This document shows, piece by piece, positions 3,412 to 29,023 of a stretch of DNA of 55,980 nucleotides (position 1 is the stretch's first letter; every line of letters starts with the position of its first letter). Source of the DNA: Bacteroidaceae bacterium (GTDB lineage: Bacteria; Bacteroidota; Bacteroidia; Bacteroidales; Bacteroidaceae); the NCBI GenBank assembly GCA_902362595.1, contig CABIXF010000025.1, positions 1 through 55,980 on the forward strand, in the 5' to 3' direction. The notes under the pieces were generated by a model. That model was not told the DNA's origin. It saw only the letters and a list, made by a program, of their open reading frames with translations, and searched no databases. The translations under genes were made by a program, and so were the position numbers.

Positions 3412-6400
3412 ATGAAAGTCAGCTTTTTCATTGACAGGCCCGTATTCTCGGCCGTCATCTCCATATTGATTGTAATCGTAGGTATCATTGGCCTGATGAT
3501 GCTGCCTATCGACCAGTACCCGCAGATTACTCCCCCCGTAGTCAAAATCAGTGCTTCCTATCCGGGAGCCAGTGCCGTGACCGTATCGCAGGCAGTAGCT
3601 ACCCCTATCGAACAGGAACTCAACGGAACACCGGGCATGCTTTACATGGAATCCAGCAGTTCCAACTCCGGAGGTTTCTCTGCCACAGTTACTTTCGACA
3701 TCTCTGCCGACCCAGACTTGGCAGCCGTGGAAATCCAGAACCGTATCAAACTGGCGGAATCCCGACTGCCCGCAGAAGTGATTCAGAATGGTATTTCGGT
3801 GGAGAAGCAGGCTCCAAGCCAGCTGATGACTCTCTGCTTGACTTCCAACGACCCGAAGTTTGACGAAATCTACCTGAGTAACTTCGCCACGTTGAACGTA
3901 CTTGATTTGCTCCGCCGTATTCCGGGAGTAGGACGTATTTCCAATATCGGTAGCCGTTACTATGCCATGCAAATCTGGGTAGACCCTGCCAAGCTGGCCA
4001 ACTTCGGACTTACCGTACAGGATGTGCAGAATGCCCTGAAAGACCAGAACCGTGAATCGGCCGCCGGTGTGCTCGGACAGCAACCCATGAACGGAGTGGA
4101 CATCACCGTTCCCATCACAGCACAAGGACGTTTGTCATCGGCCTCCCAGTTTGAGGAAATCGTGCTGCGTGCCAATCCGGACGGCTCACTCATCCGTATG
4201 CGCGATGTGGCCCGTGTGTCTTTGGAAGCTTCTTCCTACAGCACGGAAAGTGGTATCAACGGCGGAAACGCAGCCATTCTGGGTATTTACATGCTTCCGG
4301 GAGCCAACGCCATGGAGGTGGCCCAGAGCGTGAAAGACGCCATGAAAGAAATCAGCAAGAGTTTCCCGGAAGGAATGGAATACAACTTCCCGTTCGACAT
4401 GACGGATTATATCTCGGAATCCATACACGAAGTGTACAAAACGCTGTTCGAGGCCTTGTTCCTGGTGATTGTCGTGGTATTCCTTTCTTTGCAGAACTGG
4501 CGTGCCACACTGATTCCGGTAGTAGCCGTACCGATTTCTTTGATTGGTACTTTCGGCTTCATGCTGATATTCGGTTTCTCGCTCAACATCCTGACCTTGC
4601 TGGGACTGGTACTTGCCATCGGTATTGTGGTGGACGATGCCATCGTGGTAGTGGAAAACGTGGAGCGTATTATGGATGAAGAAAAACTCAGCCCGTATGA
4701 AGCTACCAAGAAAGCCATGGAGGGACTGGTGGGTGCCATCATCGCCACCTCATTGGTACTGGCTGCCGTATTCGTTCCGGTTAGCTTCCTTTCCGGTATC
4801 ACCGGACAGCTGTACCGTCAATTTACGGTCACCATTGTGGTTTCAGTGCTTCTTTCTACGGTAGTAGCCTTGACGTTGAGTCCGGTAATGTGTTCACTCA
4901 TCCTGCGCCCGGTTGATCCGAACAAACCCAAGAACAGAGTGTTCCACTTCATCAACAAATGGCTGGCCATCGGAAACAACAAATACATTGTCTATATCAA
5001 GCGTGTCATCAAGAATCCGCGCCGTGTAATGGTCGGTTTCGGAATGGTATTGATTTTCATCTATATGTTCCACCGGTTGGTGCCCACCAGCTTCCTTCCG
5101 GTTGAAGACCAAGGTTATTTCACCGTGGAACTGGAGCTTCCGGAAACCGCCACTTTGGAAAGGACCCGCGCTGTGACCGACCGGGCTGTAGATTTCATCA
5201 TGAAGGATCCGGCCGTGGAATACGTACAGAACGTAACTGGTAGCAGCCCACGTGTAGGAACCAGTCAGGCCAGAAGCCAGCTGACCGTCATCCTGAAGGA
5301 ATGGAAAGAACGTGACAATACGACTATTGACGAAGTGATGGACAGAATACAGAAAGAACTGGAGACTTATCCAGAAAGTAAGGTCTACCTTTCTACGCCT
5401 CCGGTCATTCCGGGTCTGGGTACGGCCGGCGGTTTCGAGATGCAGCTGGAAGCTCGTGGTGACGCCACTTACGACGACCTGGTACGGGCTACCGATACCT
5501 TGATGTATTATGCCTCCCAACGAAAAGAGATTACAGGACTTTCTTCCTCTCTGCAGGCTGAGATTCCTCAGCTCTACTTCGATGTAGACCGGGATAAAGT
5601 AAAACTCTCTGGAGTGCCGATGGCGGATGTGTTCTCAACCATGAAAGCATACACTGGTTCAGTATATGTGAACGACTTCAACATGTTCAACCGCATCTAC
5701 CGTGTGTACATTCAGGCAGAAGCGCCTTACCGCCGTGAACGTGACAACATCGGCTTGTTCTTCGTACGCGGTTCGGACGGCAACATGATTCCGCTGACAG
5801 CTTTGGGCAACACGGATTATACTACCGGACCAGGAAGCATCAAACGTTTCAACATGTTCAATACTTCCATCATTCGAGGTACTACCGCCAACGGGGCCAG
5901 TTCCGGACAGGTGATGGAACTGTTGGAACAGATTGCCCGTGAAAAACTGCCCGAAAACATCGGAGTGGAATGGAGTGGTCTTTCCTACCAGGAAAAGCAG
6001 GCTGGCGGACAAACCGGACTTATACTGGCACTGGTATTCCTGTTCGTATTCCTGTTCCTGGCTGCCCTTTATGAAAGCTGGACCGTCCCCATTGCCGTAT
6101 TGATTTCACTTCCGGTAGCCGTGTTGGGAGCCTATGCAGGTATTACCCTCTGCGGATTGGAAAACGATACCTACTTCCAGATTGGTCTGGTTATGTTGAT
6201 TGGTCTGGCCGCCAAGAACGCCATCCTGATTGTAGAATTCGCCAAGGACGAGGTGGACAAGGGACGCGACATCGTAGAATCGGCTCTCCATGCAGCCAGC
6301 CTGCGTTTCCGTCCGATTCTGATGACCTCACTGGCCTTTATCCTCGGTATGCTTCCGATGGTGCTTGCCACCGGGCCGGGTTCTGCCAGCCGACAGGCCA

Positions 6401-25625: not shown

Positions 25626-26168
25626 ATGAATTTTTATTTAAAATCATTTCTCATCTTTTTCCGTATCGGGATTTTCACCATTGGAGGAGGATACGCCATG
25701 GTACCGCTGATTGAGGCCGACCTGGTAGACAAACGAAAATGGGTAAGCAAAGAAGACTTCCTGGACTTAATGGCCTTGGCACAAACTGTACCGGGAATTT
25801 TTGCGGTCAACATCGCTATCTTCATCGGGTATAAACTGAAAGGATTTTGGGGAGCCTTCTGGATGGCACTAGGTACCATTCTCCCGTCATTCTTCATCAT
25901 CTTGGCCATTGCTCTCTTCTTCCGCCAATTCCAACATGTAGAAACCGTAGAACACATTTTTAAGGGAATTCGTCCAGCCGTAGTAGCCTTGATTGCCGCT
26001 CCCACTTTCAAGATGGCCAAATCAGCGCGCATTAACCGCTACAATGCCTGGATTCCAGTGGCCTCCGCATTGCTGATATGGCTCATCGGCTTTTCACCTA
26101 TCTATGTCATTATCCTCAGCGGAGTAGGAGGATACCTTTACGGACGCTACCAAAAAAGATATAACTAA
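25626..26168 (+). CDS. Half-size chromate-type transporter (CHR domain), first of a pair
   Basis: A 180-residue membrane protein with one CHR domain. The family signature FFRIGIFTIGGGYAMVPLIE lies at about 11-30 and VPGIFAVNIAIFIGYKLKG at about 56-74, with some five or six hydrophobic segments. Half-size CHR proteins work as pairs, equivalent to one full-length ChrA. ChrA exports chromate, but many CHR proteins have unknown anion substrates. It begins 11 bp after the HTCS gene and lies 17 bp before its partner, which suggests cotranscription. Confidence 0.9.
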   Translation: MNFYLKSFLIFFRIGIFTIGGGYAMVPLIEADLVDKRKWVSKEDFLDLMALAQTVPGIFAVNIAIFIGYKLKGFWGAFWMALGTILPSFFIILAIALFFRQFQHVETVEHIFKGIRPAVVALIAAPTFKMAKSARINRYNAWIPVASALLIWLIGFSPIYVIILSGVGGYLYGRYQKRYN

Positions 26169-26185
26169 TACATAAAATAAGATAT

Positions 26186-26755
26186 ATGGCTTTATTACTA
26201 TTAAAACTATTCTATACGTTCTTTAAAATAGGCTTATTCGGATTTGGAGGAGGATATGCCATGATTTCCATGATACAAGGAGAAGTGGTAACTCGCTACG
26301 GGTGGCTCAGTTCTTCCGACTTTACCGACATCATCGCCATCAGCCAGATGACCCCTGGTCCTATCGGTATCAATTCGGCAACCTACGTGGGATATACCGC
26401 CATGGTCAACGCCGGCTACTCACATAGTATAGGTATTTTAGGATCTACGATAGCCACCATTTCCGTGGTGCTTCCCTCATTTATTCTGATGGTTTTCATC
26501 AGCCGTTTTTTTCTAAAATATCAACGCCACCCAGCAGTAGAAGCTGTATTTCAAGGACTCCGCCCAGGAGTAGTCGGTCTGCTGGCTGCCGCTGCATTGG
26601 TACTGATGAATGGAGAGAACTTCGGAACAGATACCTACCAGATTGTGATAAGTATTCTGCTCTTCCTTGCGGCATTTATCGCTTCTCACCGATATAAAGT
26701 CAATCCAATTCTACTGATTGTATGCAGCGGCATTGCAGGGTATTTTTTATACTAA
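26186..26755 (+). CDS. Half-size chromate-type transporter (CHR domain), second of a pair
   Basis: A 189-residue partner of the preceding gene. It carries the matching signature FFKIGLFGFGGGYAMISMIQ (about 11-30) and ISQMTPGPIGINSATYVGY (about 52-70). The two halves differ enough to act as the N- and C-terminal halves of a heterodimer with opposite membrane orientation, as known for paired short CHR proteins. Its stop is only 3 bp from the stop of the convergent ParB-like gene, and no terminator separates them. Chromate export is a family inference only. Confidence 0.9.
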   Translation: MALLLLKLFYTFFKIGLFGFGGGYAMISMIQGEVVTRYGWLSSSDFTDIIAISQMTPGPIGINSATYVGYTAMVNAGYSHSIGILGSTIATISVVLPSFILMVFISRFFLKYQRHPAVEAVFQGLRPGVVGLLAAAALVLMNGENFGTDTYQIVISILLFLAAFIASHRYKVNPILLIVCSGIAGYFLY

Positions 26756-26758
26756 ACT

Positions 26759-27304
26759 TTATTCATCCTCATTCTCCGGCAAAATAGACTGGGGAGTGGG
26801 GATGGAAAAATCATGGTCGGCAAACAAAGAAGCCAAACCGGAAATCTGTTTCAGACGAAGCAGTTCATCCTTGTCCATACCAATGTTCTTCATTATCCAT
26901 TTATCCGACATACCGGCACGAGTCAGTTCAGCCACAATATGTGTCATAAGCCCTATATCGTGTGAACCACGGGCACGATTATGGCGGATAGTAGATCCCA
27001 TGCGATGAGACAAATCTTTGTTGATCACCACAATCGGCAGCATCCCTTTTTCTCGCTCATAAATACGCTTGGAAGTTTTCAATACCTGATAACGGTGAAA
27101 ACCATCCACAATGATGTATTTGTCATTCTCCTTGTCATAATAGCATACACAAGGCATGGTAAACCCATCCTCCCAAATGGACAATTCCAACAATTTCATC
27201 TCGGGAGGTGCCACCACGTTCGGATTGTAATCATTGGCACACACCTTTTCAACCGGTACAGCTTTCACGTGGTATACCGGACTTTTCTCTTCTTTTACGT
27301 CCAT
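26759..27304 (-). CDS. ParB-like nuclease-fold protein (IbrB-like)
   Basis: A 181-residue protein with a ParB N-terminal-like domain: VPVEKVCANDYNPN (about 17-30) and the conserved IIVDGFHRYQVL (about 64-75) with the GxHR-type motif. A helical HTH-like segment follows (MSDKWIMKNIGMDKDELLRL). The C-terminus (LFADHDFSIP) matches IbrB, the partner of IbrA in E. coli, originally linked to expression of immunoglobulin-binding genes. It is last of a three-gene cassette, with its start overlapping the PAPS-reductase-like gene by 10 bp. The biochemical activity is unknown; ParB/sulfiredoxin folds can bind nucleotides or act as CTPases or nucleases. Confidence 0.85.
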   Translation of the reverse strand: MDVKEEKSPVYHVKAVPVEKVCANDYNPNVVAPPEMKLLELSIWEDGFTMPCVCYYDKENDKYIIVDGFHRYQVLKTSKRIYEREKGMLPIVVINKDLSHRMGSTIRHNRARGSHDIGLMTHIVAELTRAGMSDKWIMKNIGMDKDELLRLKQISGLASLFADHDFSIPTPQSILPENEDE

Positions 27305-28593
27305 ATCTTTTTATATTGTTGTAAAATATAATCTTTCATTTTCTTTTCTTCCTTGCTTACAGCAAATCCCATGTATTTGCACGCATAATCATTTCGAAGA
27401 ATGCAAAGGCACATTCGTTTGTAGGTTGGAATTTCCCGAAATTCTGCAATATCGATGTCATCCAGATATTCCATCATCACCGGACGCTTCGTTGTTTTAT
27501 AATTACTTTTGCCACGAACCGTTATCGGAATTTTCATTTCTTCCAGTTTGGCAATGGTTTCATCGCTCAAGCATCCTCCCTTGGTTCTCCAAAACTTGAT
27601 ACTTGTATGCAACTTACTCAAATATCCTCTACGGGTTTCTTCCGGAAGCGTGGAAAGCAGAAACTCCATAAACGACTTCCACGTATGTCCTTCCGGTAAT
27701 TTGATCCCTCCATGCCCCATGGCCCGCGTTCCACCATATAATGCAGAAAAATTCACTCCGTTTACACGCCCTATCATCTTACCCCAAGTGTCAGGCTCAA
27801 TGACTTTATACAAGCGTAAACTTTCGATTGCTTCGCTAATAAACGGACTGGCCACACGTTGTCGTTCCAGACTGACTCCTGCATAATAATACAAATCATA
27901 TAAGCGGTTATAATCCCATCCAAACTTTCCATTTGCCGTCCAGACGTCCGTGGTCTTCCAATCGTAAATGGGATAAAGATTATATACATCATTCGCAATC
28001 CTGGAACTCCATTGGTATTTATGATAAAGTTGCTGCTTCAACCCTCCATAAATTGTACGCCAACGATTGTAACTTTCCTGTGTGCGGATACCCACCAAAC
28101 AAGCCGTACGCACTGCCTTTTTCTTTTCATGCAACCATGCGGCAAAGCGTAACTGGAATTCATAATCCCACATATTGTCATGAAAAAAAGGAAAATCATC
28201 GGCTTTCATCACTCCGTCGGGCATCTCGCGAACCCAAATATCCTGTAATTTCTCATCCCACGGACGCCAATAATGCTGATACATGGATGTACAAGTCCTC
28301 ACCTTAAAAGGCACACAAATCCGATATACCTCAAGTATATCCTTATTCTGTTCCAACATCCGGTTAACAAACTCAATCGTATGGACATACTGCACCTCAT
28401 AATCCATAAAGAATACACCAAGCTTGATGTTCAATTGGTGTCTACGAATATAGTCTATACACAGATTAAGCAACACCCCACTATCCTTTCCCCCAGAAAA
28501 TGACACATAGACATTATCAAATTCCTTAAATAAAACTGATAAGCGCTCCTGAGCTAACTCATACACATTTTTCCCATTTTCAGTTTTTTTCAT
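27295..28593 (-). CDS. PAPS-reductase/PP-loop family protein (IbrA-like, DUF3440)
   Basis: A 432-residue soluble protein with an N-terminal PP-loop ATPase domain: SFSGGKDSGVLLNL, the pyrophosphate-binding SGGKDS at 33-38. Family segments follow: DYEVQYVHTIEFVNRM, YQHYWRPWDEK and VGIRTQESYNRWR. A DUF3440 C-terminal part (about 260-415) contains KTTKRPVMMEYLDDIDIAEFREIPTYKRMC. This matches IbrA. The family resembles DndC, the sulfur-transfer ATPase of DNA phosphorothioation, and sulfate assimilation enzymes, but no sulfate genes are adjacent. It overlaps its neighbours by 14 and 10 bp, so the three products are likely made together. Confidence 0.9.
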   Translation of the reverse strand: MKKTENGKNVYELAQERLSVLFKEFDNVYVSFSGGKDSGVLLNLCIDYIRRHQLNIKLGVFFMDYEVQYVHTIEFVNRMLEQNKDILEVYRICVPFKVRTCTSMYQHYWRPWDEKLQDIWVREMPDGVMKADDFPFFHDNMWDYEFQLRFAAWLHEKKKAVRTACLVGIRTQESYNRWRTIYGGLKQQLYHKYQWSSRIANDVYNLYPIYDWKTTDVWTANGKFGWDYNRLYDLYYYAGVSLERQRVASPFISEAIESLRLYKVIEPDTWGKMIGRVNGVNFSALYGGTRAMGHGGIKLPEGHTWKSFMEFLLSTLPEETRRGYLSKLHTSIKFWRTKGGCLSDETIAKLEEMKIPITVRGKSNYKTTKRPVMMEYLDDIDIAEFREIPTYKRMCLCILRNDYACKYMGFAVSKEEKKMKDYILQQYKKIWT

Positions 28594-28987
28594 TCTTCAT
28601 TCTCATTTTAAGATAGGTACTCCACATACGTTCTATTTCAAAATTCTGAACCGAGAAAAACGATTCATGAATTTTCTGCACCACGGCTTCCAATATCTTA
28701 TTCGTATCTTGAAATTCGTCTATCACAGCTTCCAGCAAACCCGCAAACACCGACTCATCATCATTCTCCACATAATAATTGTTGATGACAATTGTTTTTT
28801 TTCGCACTTCTACAGGAAAAAAGCCCAACACTTTTTTTTCGTAAAAAGCCACAAACCAAATAAATGACTCACTGGTCTTAAACGGATAGTTATGATTGTA
28901 TTTGAGGATGTCTGGATTCATCACCAAAGGAGCTACACATTTATACAGTTCTTGAGATGTACCTGCCATTTTTATTACCTTCAACAT
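28580..28987 (-). CDS. Small protein heading the ParB/PAPS-reductase-like cassette (possible GNAT fold)
   Basis: A 135-residue protein not assigned to a named family by eye. SFIWFVAFYEKKVLGFFPVE followed by a strand (KTIVINNYYV) and a helix (VFAGLLEAVIDEFQ) is reminiscent of a GNAT acetyltransferase core without a clear acetyl-CoA motif. The C-terminus is rich in Lys, Met and Arg. An alternative start is the ATG at 28969 (MAGTSQEL). It overlaps the PP-loop gene by 14 bp and has a -7 box at 29016-29023, so it is the first gene of the cassette. Confidence 0.75.
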   Translation of the reverse strand: MLKVIKMAGTSQELYKCVAPLVMNPDILKYNHNYPFKTSESFIWFVAFYEKKVLGFFPVEVRKKTIVINNYYVENDDESVFAGLLEAVIDEFQDTNKILEAVVQKIHESFFSVQNFEIERMWSTYLKMRMKNEKN

Positions 28988-29015: not shown

Positions 29016-29023
29016 CAAAAATA
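29016..29023 (-). promoter_or_regulatory. -7 promoter element for the ParB/PAPS-reductase-like cassette
   Basis: TATTTTTG on the minus strand matches TAnnTTTG, 28 bp upstream of the ATG at 28987. It lies in the 68-bp gap after the corrinoid operon, so the cassette probably has independent transcription. Confidence 0.6.

Follow-up and report, generated by a model that had tools for sequence, protein, structure and literature searches.

A Three-Gene IbrA-IbrB Cassette of Bacteroidales with a Constant GNAT-Fold Partner: A Candidate Nucleic-Acid or Nucleotide Modification Module

IbrA and IbrB are encoded by a gene pair that occurs in Klebsiella and Escherichia coli plasmids, many phages, E. coli K-12, and gut Bacteroidales, and that appears, in excerpts of the literature, only under fold-based names or as a "co-activator of prophage genes". 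In the window studied here, i.e., the whole analysed stretch of 55,980 nucleotides from a Bacteroidaceae bacterium (contig CABIXF010000025.1), the pair is preceded by a small third gene, and the three genes form one unit behind their own conserved promoter box (Table 1). The best explanation of this cassette, which is advanced tentatively, is that it acts as a module that uses ATP to modify nucleic acids or nucleotides and whose accessory subunits can be exchanged; a role in nucleic-acid modification is plausible from the phage context and the fold. The observed basis comprises the gene unit, the co-occurrence of its members, their motifs, and the predicted folds of the small protein and the N-terminal domain of IbrA. 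The IbrA/IbrB pair itself is known. The small gene as a constant GNAT-fold partner, its lost coenzyme A (CoA) loop, and the exchange of partners in phages are apparently new, none of them being described in the literature searched, whose scope left out most subscription journals. A constant third subunit of recognisable fold offers a handle on IbrA-IbrB chemistry, and caution is needed in annotating such genes as phosphoadenosine phosphosulfate (PAPS) reductase, ParB, or acetyltransferase.

With regard to gene organization, the coordinates, both overlaps, and the promoter comparison agree with an earlier note on this DNA, in which three overlapping minus-strand genes with one -7 box had been described. 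The gap between the upstream ATP-binding cassette (ABC) ATPase gene and the small gene is 68 bp long and contains TATTTTTG. A TANNTTTG box occurs 25-49 bp 5′ of the small gene in 13/13 loci (the window and 12 relatives), the background across the entire window being 0.041 per 100 nt of strand. The overlap between the small gene and IbrA is kept in 71 of 82 loci and that between IbrA and IbrB in 70 of 82 (some genomes being counted in repeat copies). The small gene is a real gene that is under purifying selection and evolves faster: its ratio of nonsynonymous to synonymous substitution rates (dN/dS) is 0.13, 0.13, and 0.18 versus three relatives, compared with 0.02-0.03 for IbrA (two pairs), 0.015-0.055 for IbrB, and 0.05-0.06 for the upstream ABC ATPase (two pairs).

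Table 1. Features of the cassette and their positions in the window.
Feature	Position	Strand	Description
Small gene	28580..28987	-	135 amino acids; predicted GNAT fold lacking the strict acetyl-CoA loop motif; proposed to be the third subunit
IbrA-like gene	27295..28593	-	432 amino acids; PP-loop (PAPS_reduct, PF01507) and DUF3440 (PF11922)
IbrB-like gene	26759..27304	-	181 amino acids; ParB/sulfiredoxin-type by sequence; DGFHR and RHNxARGxH motifs
-7 box TATTTTTG	29016..29023	-	Cassette promoter; starts 36 bp 5′ of the small-gene start
Small gene/IbrA overlap	28580..28593	-	14 bp; from the coordinates of the open reading frames
IbrA/IbrB overlap	27295..27304	-	10 bp; from the coordinates of the open reading frames

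Among the 33 named Bacteroidales loci, the nearest belongs to "Bacteroides mediterraneensis" (95% in IbrA), which points to a gut bacterium of Phocaeicola type as the source of the window. BLAST with the small protein of the window placed its gene immediately before IbrA in 31 of the 33, in support of the third component that had been proposed. The two loci without it are a lone IbrA (L029), in a genome that carries a complete cassette at another site (L052), and a 4.3-kb contig with ~1 kb ahead of IbrA (L043). In a family sample of 301 genomes, DUF3440 was detected in 45, the small gene in 43, and IbrB in 47. All 43 genomes with the small gene fall inside the 45 with DUF3440, and none of the 256 others has it (Fisher 4e-50, relatedness uncorrected). 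In the exceptions, G379 and G476, the loci are of phage type and encode an SNF2-like helicase upstream, and the two additional genomes with IbrB contain divergent IbrA-like genes; one genome (G582) gave an additional weak partial match to the small gene elsewhere (E 8e-07). The small gene is therefore constant in Bacteroidaceae (43/45 DUF3440 genomes) but not in the IbrA-IbrB family at large, where 7 of the 97 loci sampled from phages, viruses, and plasmids contained it. The objection named in the earlier note, absence of the small gene from most homologous loci, thus does not apply within Bacteroidaceae but does apply to the wider family. DUF3440 is patchy: within the genus, 28 of 61 genomes have it (one as a contig-edge fragment), within the family, 45 of 301, and across the phylum, 3 of 296 exceed the cut-off, with 4 at E 1e-3. 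The distance matrices of the three proteins are correlated (r 0.80 for small protein-IbrA, 0.73 for small protein-IbrB, and 0.82 for IbrA-IbrB; 63 loci; 0/2000 permutations), a result that can also be obtained from shared descent alone. A tblastn search with the small protein of the window recovered three plasmid records (Parabacteroides, Phocaeicola, and Bacteroides) and four faecal phage records.

The three genes remain together while their surroundings change. The same ABC-transporter operon precedes the cassette in the window and at 12 of the 33 loci; nine of these 12 also have a chromate-transporter pair on the opposite side. Neither flanking operon of the window was found at the other 21 loci, several of which are short contigs (L044 has a 28% ABC-ATPase match only). 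A genus-wide survey of the positions of the ABC ATPase and the chromate transporter yielded no clean empty site. It had also been stated that sulfate-assimilation and chromosome-partition neighbours were missing; as regards sulfate, this is true of those adjacent genes that were examined, but IbrB is adjoined by a chromate-transporter pair (PF02417). The neighbours of IbrB are IbrA and the chromate transporter, and parA is absent next door, no wider search for parA having been made. A partnership with the chromate transporter was considered and rejected: its adjacency appears incidental because the pair lies elsewhere in most other cassette-bearing genomes checked. Such a pair is present at 25626-26755 of the window and, in another arrangement and from another subfamily, at L109:5276-6378.

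For the small protein, structure prediction and structure comparison gave a complete GNAT fold resembling ElaA, RimI, and Gcn5, which upholds its earlier description as GNAT-like. Profile searches recovered little: no Pfam match above the cut-off, no GNAT family up to E 1, nothing in NCBIfam or PADLOC, and in PHROG only a weak match (E 0.057). Residues N31, Y34, P35, W44, N70, and Y71 are invariant. While the fold is common to ElaA, RimI, and Gcn5, the strict acetyl-CoA loop motif [RQ]xxGx[GA] occurs in 0 of 61 small proteins versus 19 of 30 control GNATs, and the small protein apparently lacks the usual acetyl-CoA site, as judged from its sequence.

IbrA contains DUF3440 (305.5 bits; cut-off 25) and PAPS_reduct (48.5 bits; cut-off 22.5) and is followed by an overlapping ParB-like gene, consistent with the IbrA/IbrB identity first assigned to the pair. 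The SGGKDS loop was found at residues 33-38, as had been noted, and S[GN]GKDS and [IV]RxxESxxR are each kept in 59/59 aligned members. The reductase cysteine motif EC[AG]xH occurs in none of these 59 proteins, and no cysteine is invariant: C405 is present in 57, C93 in 55, and C395 in 54, with C93 missing in both enteric copies. The NCBIfam cysH model gave 16.5 against a cut-off of 165.1. Profile matches in the PDB are to CysD (E 3e-4), flavin adenine dinucleotide (FAD) synthase (4e-4), and PAPS reductase (0.09), and models place the N-terminal domain in the group of FAD synthase, CysD, and the PAPS and adenosine phosphosulfate (APS) reductases. IbrA differs from CysH, CysD, and FAD synthase in the missing ECxxH-type motif (0/59) and the extra DUF3440 domain. 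The fold by itself does not decide in favour of adenylation, because the top fold matches are tied; we infer that adenylyl transfer would fit IbrA better than reduction or Fe-S sulfur insertion, because the cysteines are missing.

IbrB matches phrog_2159 (E 2.4e-76), is encoded directly downstream of IbrA, and has no Pfam match up to E 1. The ParB motif GFHRY that had been reported for it is present as DGFHRY at residues 67-72, but it is not the usual ParB box: GERR occurs in 0 of 45 IbrB proteins, and the DGxHR form takes its place, DG[FY]HR and RHNxARGxH being found in 45/45. The C-terminal stretch is also conserved. The best PDB profile matches are Noc (7e-06) and ParB (1e-04), followed by weak matches to SbnI (0.016), the hypothetical protein 1vk1 (0.053), and free serine kinase (0.14). 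The DGxHR form links IbrB to the group of the SerK/SbnI kinases and sulfiredoxin, having been seen in SbnI (VIDGVHRY) and 1vk1 (VDGHHR); overall, IbrB scores better to Noc/ParB, and it has RHNxARGxH throughout. On the model NF053625, IbrB scores 15 against 380. In a single alignment with 1vk1, based on a weak match, an Asn of IbrB stands near the position of the SerK catalytic glutamate, presumably Glu30. According to part of a 2025 survey, ParB/sulfiredoxin-type folds bind ATP, GTP, or CTP (PMC12704722). The same excerpts describe a ParB-fold/acetyltransferase fusion that binds GTP; its domain types resemble IbrB plus the small protein, but it is a single fused protein, and no PP-loop partner is mentioned there (PMC12704722).

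Outside Bacteroidales, the partners of IbrA-IbrB change. The sample comprised 97 loci of a viral collection and four phage-collection records, with a full IbrA open reading frame called in 94; the larger viral scan covered the best 80 of 406 relatives. In six-frame translation of these 94 and three plasmid loci, IbrB was found in 96 of the 97, the exception being L160. The phage proteins (phrog_2302 and phrog_2159) are the same core pair, with IbrA identity up to ~70%, but mostly have a helicase or a cupin as partner. Of the 94 phage loci, 36 encode an SNF2-like helicase (Pfam SNF2-rel_dom in two representatives), and in 31 its gene immediately precedes IbrA. A cupin of the ectoine-synthase family, identified by PF06339 in two phages and by PDB matches to L-ectoine synthase, is found in 31 of 94; its gene immediately follows IbrA in 30 and stands between IbrA and IbrB or, in 9 loci, is fused to IbrB. 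The two types coincide in one locus (Fisher 2e-07). Cupin residues E58, Y86, and H94, which we take to be the iron ligands of ectoine synthase, are kept in 31/31. At L106:5305-5697 and L108:5296-6195, for example, the ectoine-synthase fold is used away from osmolyte genes. Another family, of ~140 amino acids, occurs in 34 of 94 loci; the cupin accompanies it in 19 of these, and the helicase in none. For two members, neither a PHROG family nor a Pfam match exceeding the cut-off was obtained. Its motifs (family c3, e.g., L226:5742-6176) are WExxxxGMW, NRxAWxGxAAC, and TRxAW. Further phage neighbours (140 of 173 candidates) include DnaB, RecA, Rad52, YqaJ, DNA polymerase A, and a C5-methylase, with one or two members each.

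Small-like proteins outside the Bacteroidales genomes were sought with a six-frame profile scan built on the Bacteroidales small proteins; distant copies may be missed, and the 7/97 given above is a lower bound. A gut contig with bacterial neighbours (L109) contains the full cassette. In L193, L194, L183, and L179, the small-like gene lies directly after IbrA, in the position that the cupin has in other phages, and in L185, it lies directly before IbrA. In a Streptomyces plasmid (L107), it directly follows IbrB (E 1e-11). In L162, the protein encoded before IbrA joins a GNAT-like domain to a segment of the DUF3440 tail; a protein search with this fusion found no GNAT fusion other than L162, and it counts as single-case evidence because the tail segment also begins unrelated phage proteins. 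None of the viral loci with a small-like gene has the cupin, which may be chance with so few loci. The strict CoA motif is absent from all small-like proteins outside the Bacteroidales genomes, and three GNAT-like phage copies gave no PHROG family. The profile found no small-like match in the enteric plasmids L104 and L105 or in Streptococcus, Mycobacterium, and Pseudoalteromonas phages (L102, L108, and L106, respectively). A pattern-based viral scan with the small-protein alignment returned no locus and so missed the distant copies too.

The pairs known from E. coli, IbrA/IbrB of ECOR-9 and YbdN/YbdM of K-12, share the DUF3440 PP-loop and ParB-like composition (PF11922 was detected in the E. 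coli control genome), but the two enteric plasmid loci have no small GNAT-fold gene in the six-frame scan. Excerpts of one study describe YbdN as a DUF3440 protein and YbdM as ParB-like, with ybdNM repressed by CitR (PMC9068703). The resemblance to DndC of DNA phosphorothioation that had been put forward was weakened: IbrA scores 19.8 on TIGR03183 (cut-off 290.4), and it has neither the PAPS-reductase cysteine motif nor an invariant cysteine, while DndC, according to part of PMC10853773, has three cluster cysteines plus a dyad. DndC/DndB and IbrA/IbrB have in common a PP-loop protein of the PAPS-reductase branch and a ParB-superfamily protein, but the unit contains no DndA, DndD, or DndE. None of dndA, dndB, dndD, and dndE was among the flank families shown (25 per list) in the PADLOC scans described below, the other window genes lying outside that scan.

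Taken as a modification module, the cassette would be one three-subunit enzyme unit of the mobile and phage IbrA-IbrB family, with a third subunit that is constant in Bacteroidales, and the three proteins would form a complex. IbrA would act as a PP-loop ATP pyrophosphatase that activates a substrate by adenylation rather than by thiol reduction. IbrB, as a putative nucleotide-binding protein of DGxHR type, may perform or gate a second phosphoryl step or may recruit the pair to DNA. The small protein would be a substrate-holding or adaptor subunit rather than an acetyltransferase. The exchange of partners in phages suggests an ATP-activated group transfer. The most likely target would be a nucleic acid or nucleotide, DNA first, because of the helicase partner, the phage setting, and the ParB-like proteins of DNA-modification systems, which, in excerpts of the respective papers, accompany DNA modification in Dpd (PMC12839542) and phage CmoX systems (PMC12783734).

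Several observations weigh against this modification reading. The Foldseek ranking for IbrA is headed by a PAPS reductase, and the VIA-align scores are 14.7 for FAD synthase, 14.3 for CysD, and 13.8-12.3 for the APS/PAPS reductases, the top rows being tied (plant APS reductase 13.8). The DUF3440 half was modelled with moderate confidence and has no fold match, which is not evidence of a new fold. The contrast in the CoA loop is softer at similar size, where 11 of 20 controls below 230 amino acids have the motif, and two distant phage copies of the small protein (L193 and L194) retain the near-motif RQ[KQ]GVF. No small protein was seen with E. coli YbdN/YbdM or with most phage pairs, and the non-helicase neighbours in phages are diverse, including lysozyme, integrase, and sugar enzymes. 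The fixed place beside the ABC-transporter operon in the Phocaeicola clade and the siderophore genes beside IbrA-IbrB in two enteric plasmids would suit metabolism, and in the part of PMC9068703 that lists them, cys genes share a table with ybdN and ybdM, a possible sulfur link.

Small-molecule metabolism is accordingly a serious rival, although a less probable one. IbrA-IbrB would activate and phosphorylate, or sulfur-modify, an amino-acid-like metabolite of siderophore or osmolyte type, with the GNAT protein or, in phages, the cupin as the next enzyme. Besides the siderophore neighbours in both enteric plasmids viewed and the cys genes just mentioned, the EctC-like partner in 31/94 phage loci agrees with such a function, and SbnI, which has DGxHR like IbrB, is named as a serine-kinase homologue in excerpts of PMC12704722. 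However, the helicase partner in 36/94 phage loci does not fit a metabolic pathway, the small protein has no strict CoA loop, and the 21/33 Bacteroidales loci without the neighbour operons of the window show no recurring biosynthetic neighbour.

A narrower form of the modification reading is doubtful. Here, IbrA-IbrB would be the invariable core of a widespread family of machines that tailor DNA nucleobases, adding or processing a group similar to an amino acid, with the accessory subunit swapped by host: phages would use an SNF2-like translocase or an ectoine-synthase-like cupin, and gut Bacteroidales, scattered phages, and the Streptomyces plasmid would use a GNAT protein holding another activated donor in place of acetyl-CoA.

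It is rather unlikely that the cassette is a regulator, in which IbrA-IbrB (with the small protein) co-activates prophage or mobile-element genes, in keeping with the name given in E. coli ECOR-9, and IbrB is the DNA-binding part. IbrAB are said, in the title of Sandt et al. 2002, to activate eib prophage genes. The activity reported for IbrA/IbrB in excerpts of four further papers is likewise the activation of prophage eib genes (PMC4490671, PMC3401170, PMC8813620, and PMC6008420). The ParB-like sequence of IbrB and its conserved C-terminal stretch are compatible with DNA binding in this role, and ParB-fold proteins such as VirB control genes, as stated in part of PMC12704722. On the other hand, a pure regulator would not need the PP-loop active site that is kept in 59/59 IbrA proteins.

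Anti-phage defence by nucleic-acid modification, similar to Dnd or BREX-4, is improbable and the least supported among the modification, metabolic, and defence readings. The PP-loop and ParB-like composition resembles DndC plus DndB, the distribution is patchy, and on one Streptomyces plasmid, the copy is adjacent to cas genes of type I-E. In PADLOC 2.0.0, no full-length match was obtained: the small protein and IbrB had none, and IbrA had weak partial PP-loop matches only (BrxP 3e-07, DndC 2.6e-05, and SspD 0.0016). Scores on curated models are far under the cut-off, and the unit has no nuclease. The position is fixed in the Phocaeicola clade, and phages themselves carry the pair. The defence-locus setting suggested earlier was compared by PADLOC scans of 139/150 flank proteins, of 120 proteins beside 10 cassettes, and of 134/152 proteins from 10 chosen control regions of the same genomes; in this coarse comparison (25 families shown per list), no excess of defence families was visible, and the idea of a defence island was rejected. 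Single flank proteins match strongly (mad3 1.4e-58; PDC-S22 1e-131), but the control regions give equally strong single matches (DpdF 2e-141, RT_UG29, and mREase_IV), and the commonest flank matches are UvrD-like helicases.

It is very improbable that the small protein is just an ordinary acetyltransferase that shares a transcript with IbrA-IbrB but has a separate function: its predicted GNAT fold is clear, 11/30 control GNATs also lack the strict CoA motif, and the near-motif survives in the two distant phage copies, but the loop is lost in 61/61, the gene overlaps IbrA in 71/82 loci, full-length copies among the 301 genomes occur only where IbrA does, and distant copies likewise lie beside IbrA-IbrB, with the fusion in L162.

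Some further features of individual loci were observed. In the viral contig L185, two GNAT-like proteins flank IbrA (4088-4477 and 6001-6396), the second with RRRGLS near the acetyl-CoA motif. In the Streptomyces plasmid (L107:1-7613), type I-E CRISPR genes adjoin the pair, and two unknown genes (133 and 484 amino acids) lie upstream of IbrA. The enteric plasmid pairs L104 and L105 stand directly beside siderophore genes (iro; iut/iuc). IbrA occurs alone, without IbrB or the small gene, in L029/L273 and in L160, a contig of the viral collection, and an extra lone IbrB (L115:17841-18365, genome G517) lies ~8 kb from a complete cassette, beside what appears by eye to be a reverse-transcriptase-like fragment. 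In the cassettes L035 and L089, IbrA is broken into two open reading frames, by decay or assembly error. In addition, a homologue of the DUF3440 tail of ~45-70 amino acids is found alone or opening unrelated phage proteins (L204:6649-6891, L162:4341-4994, P0241, and P0242), as a separate mobile domain.

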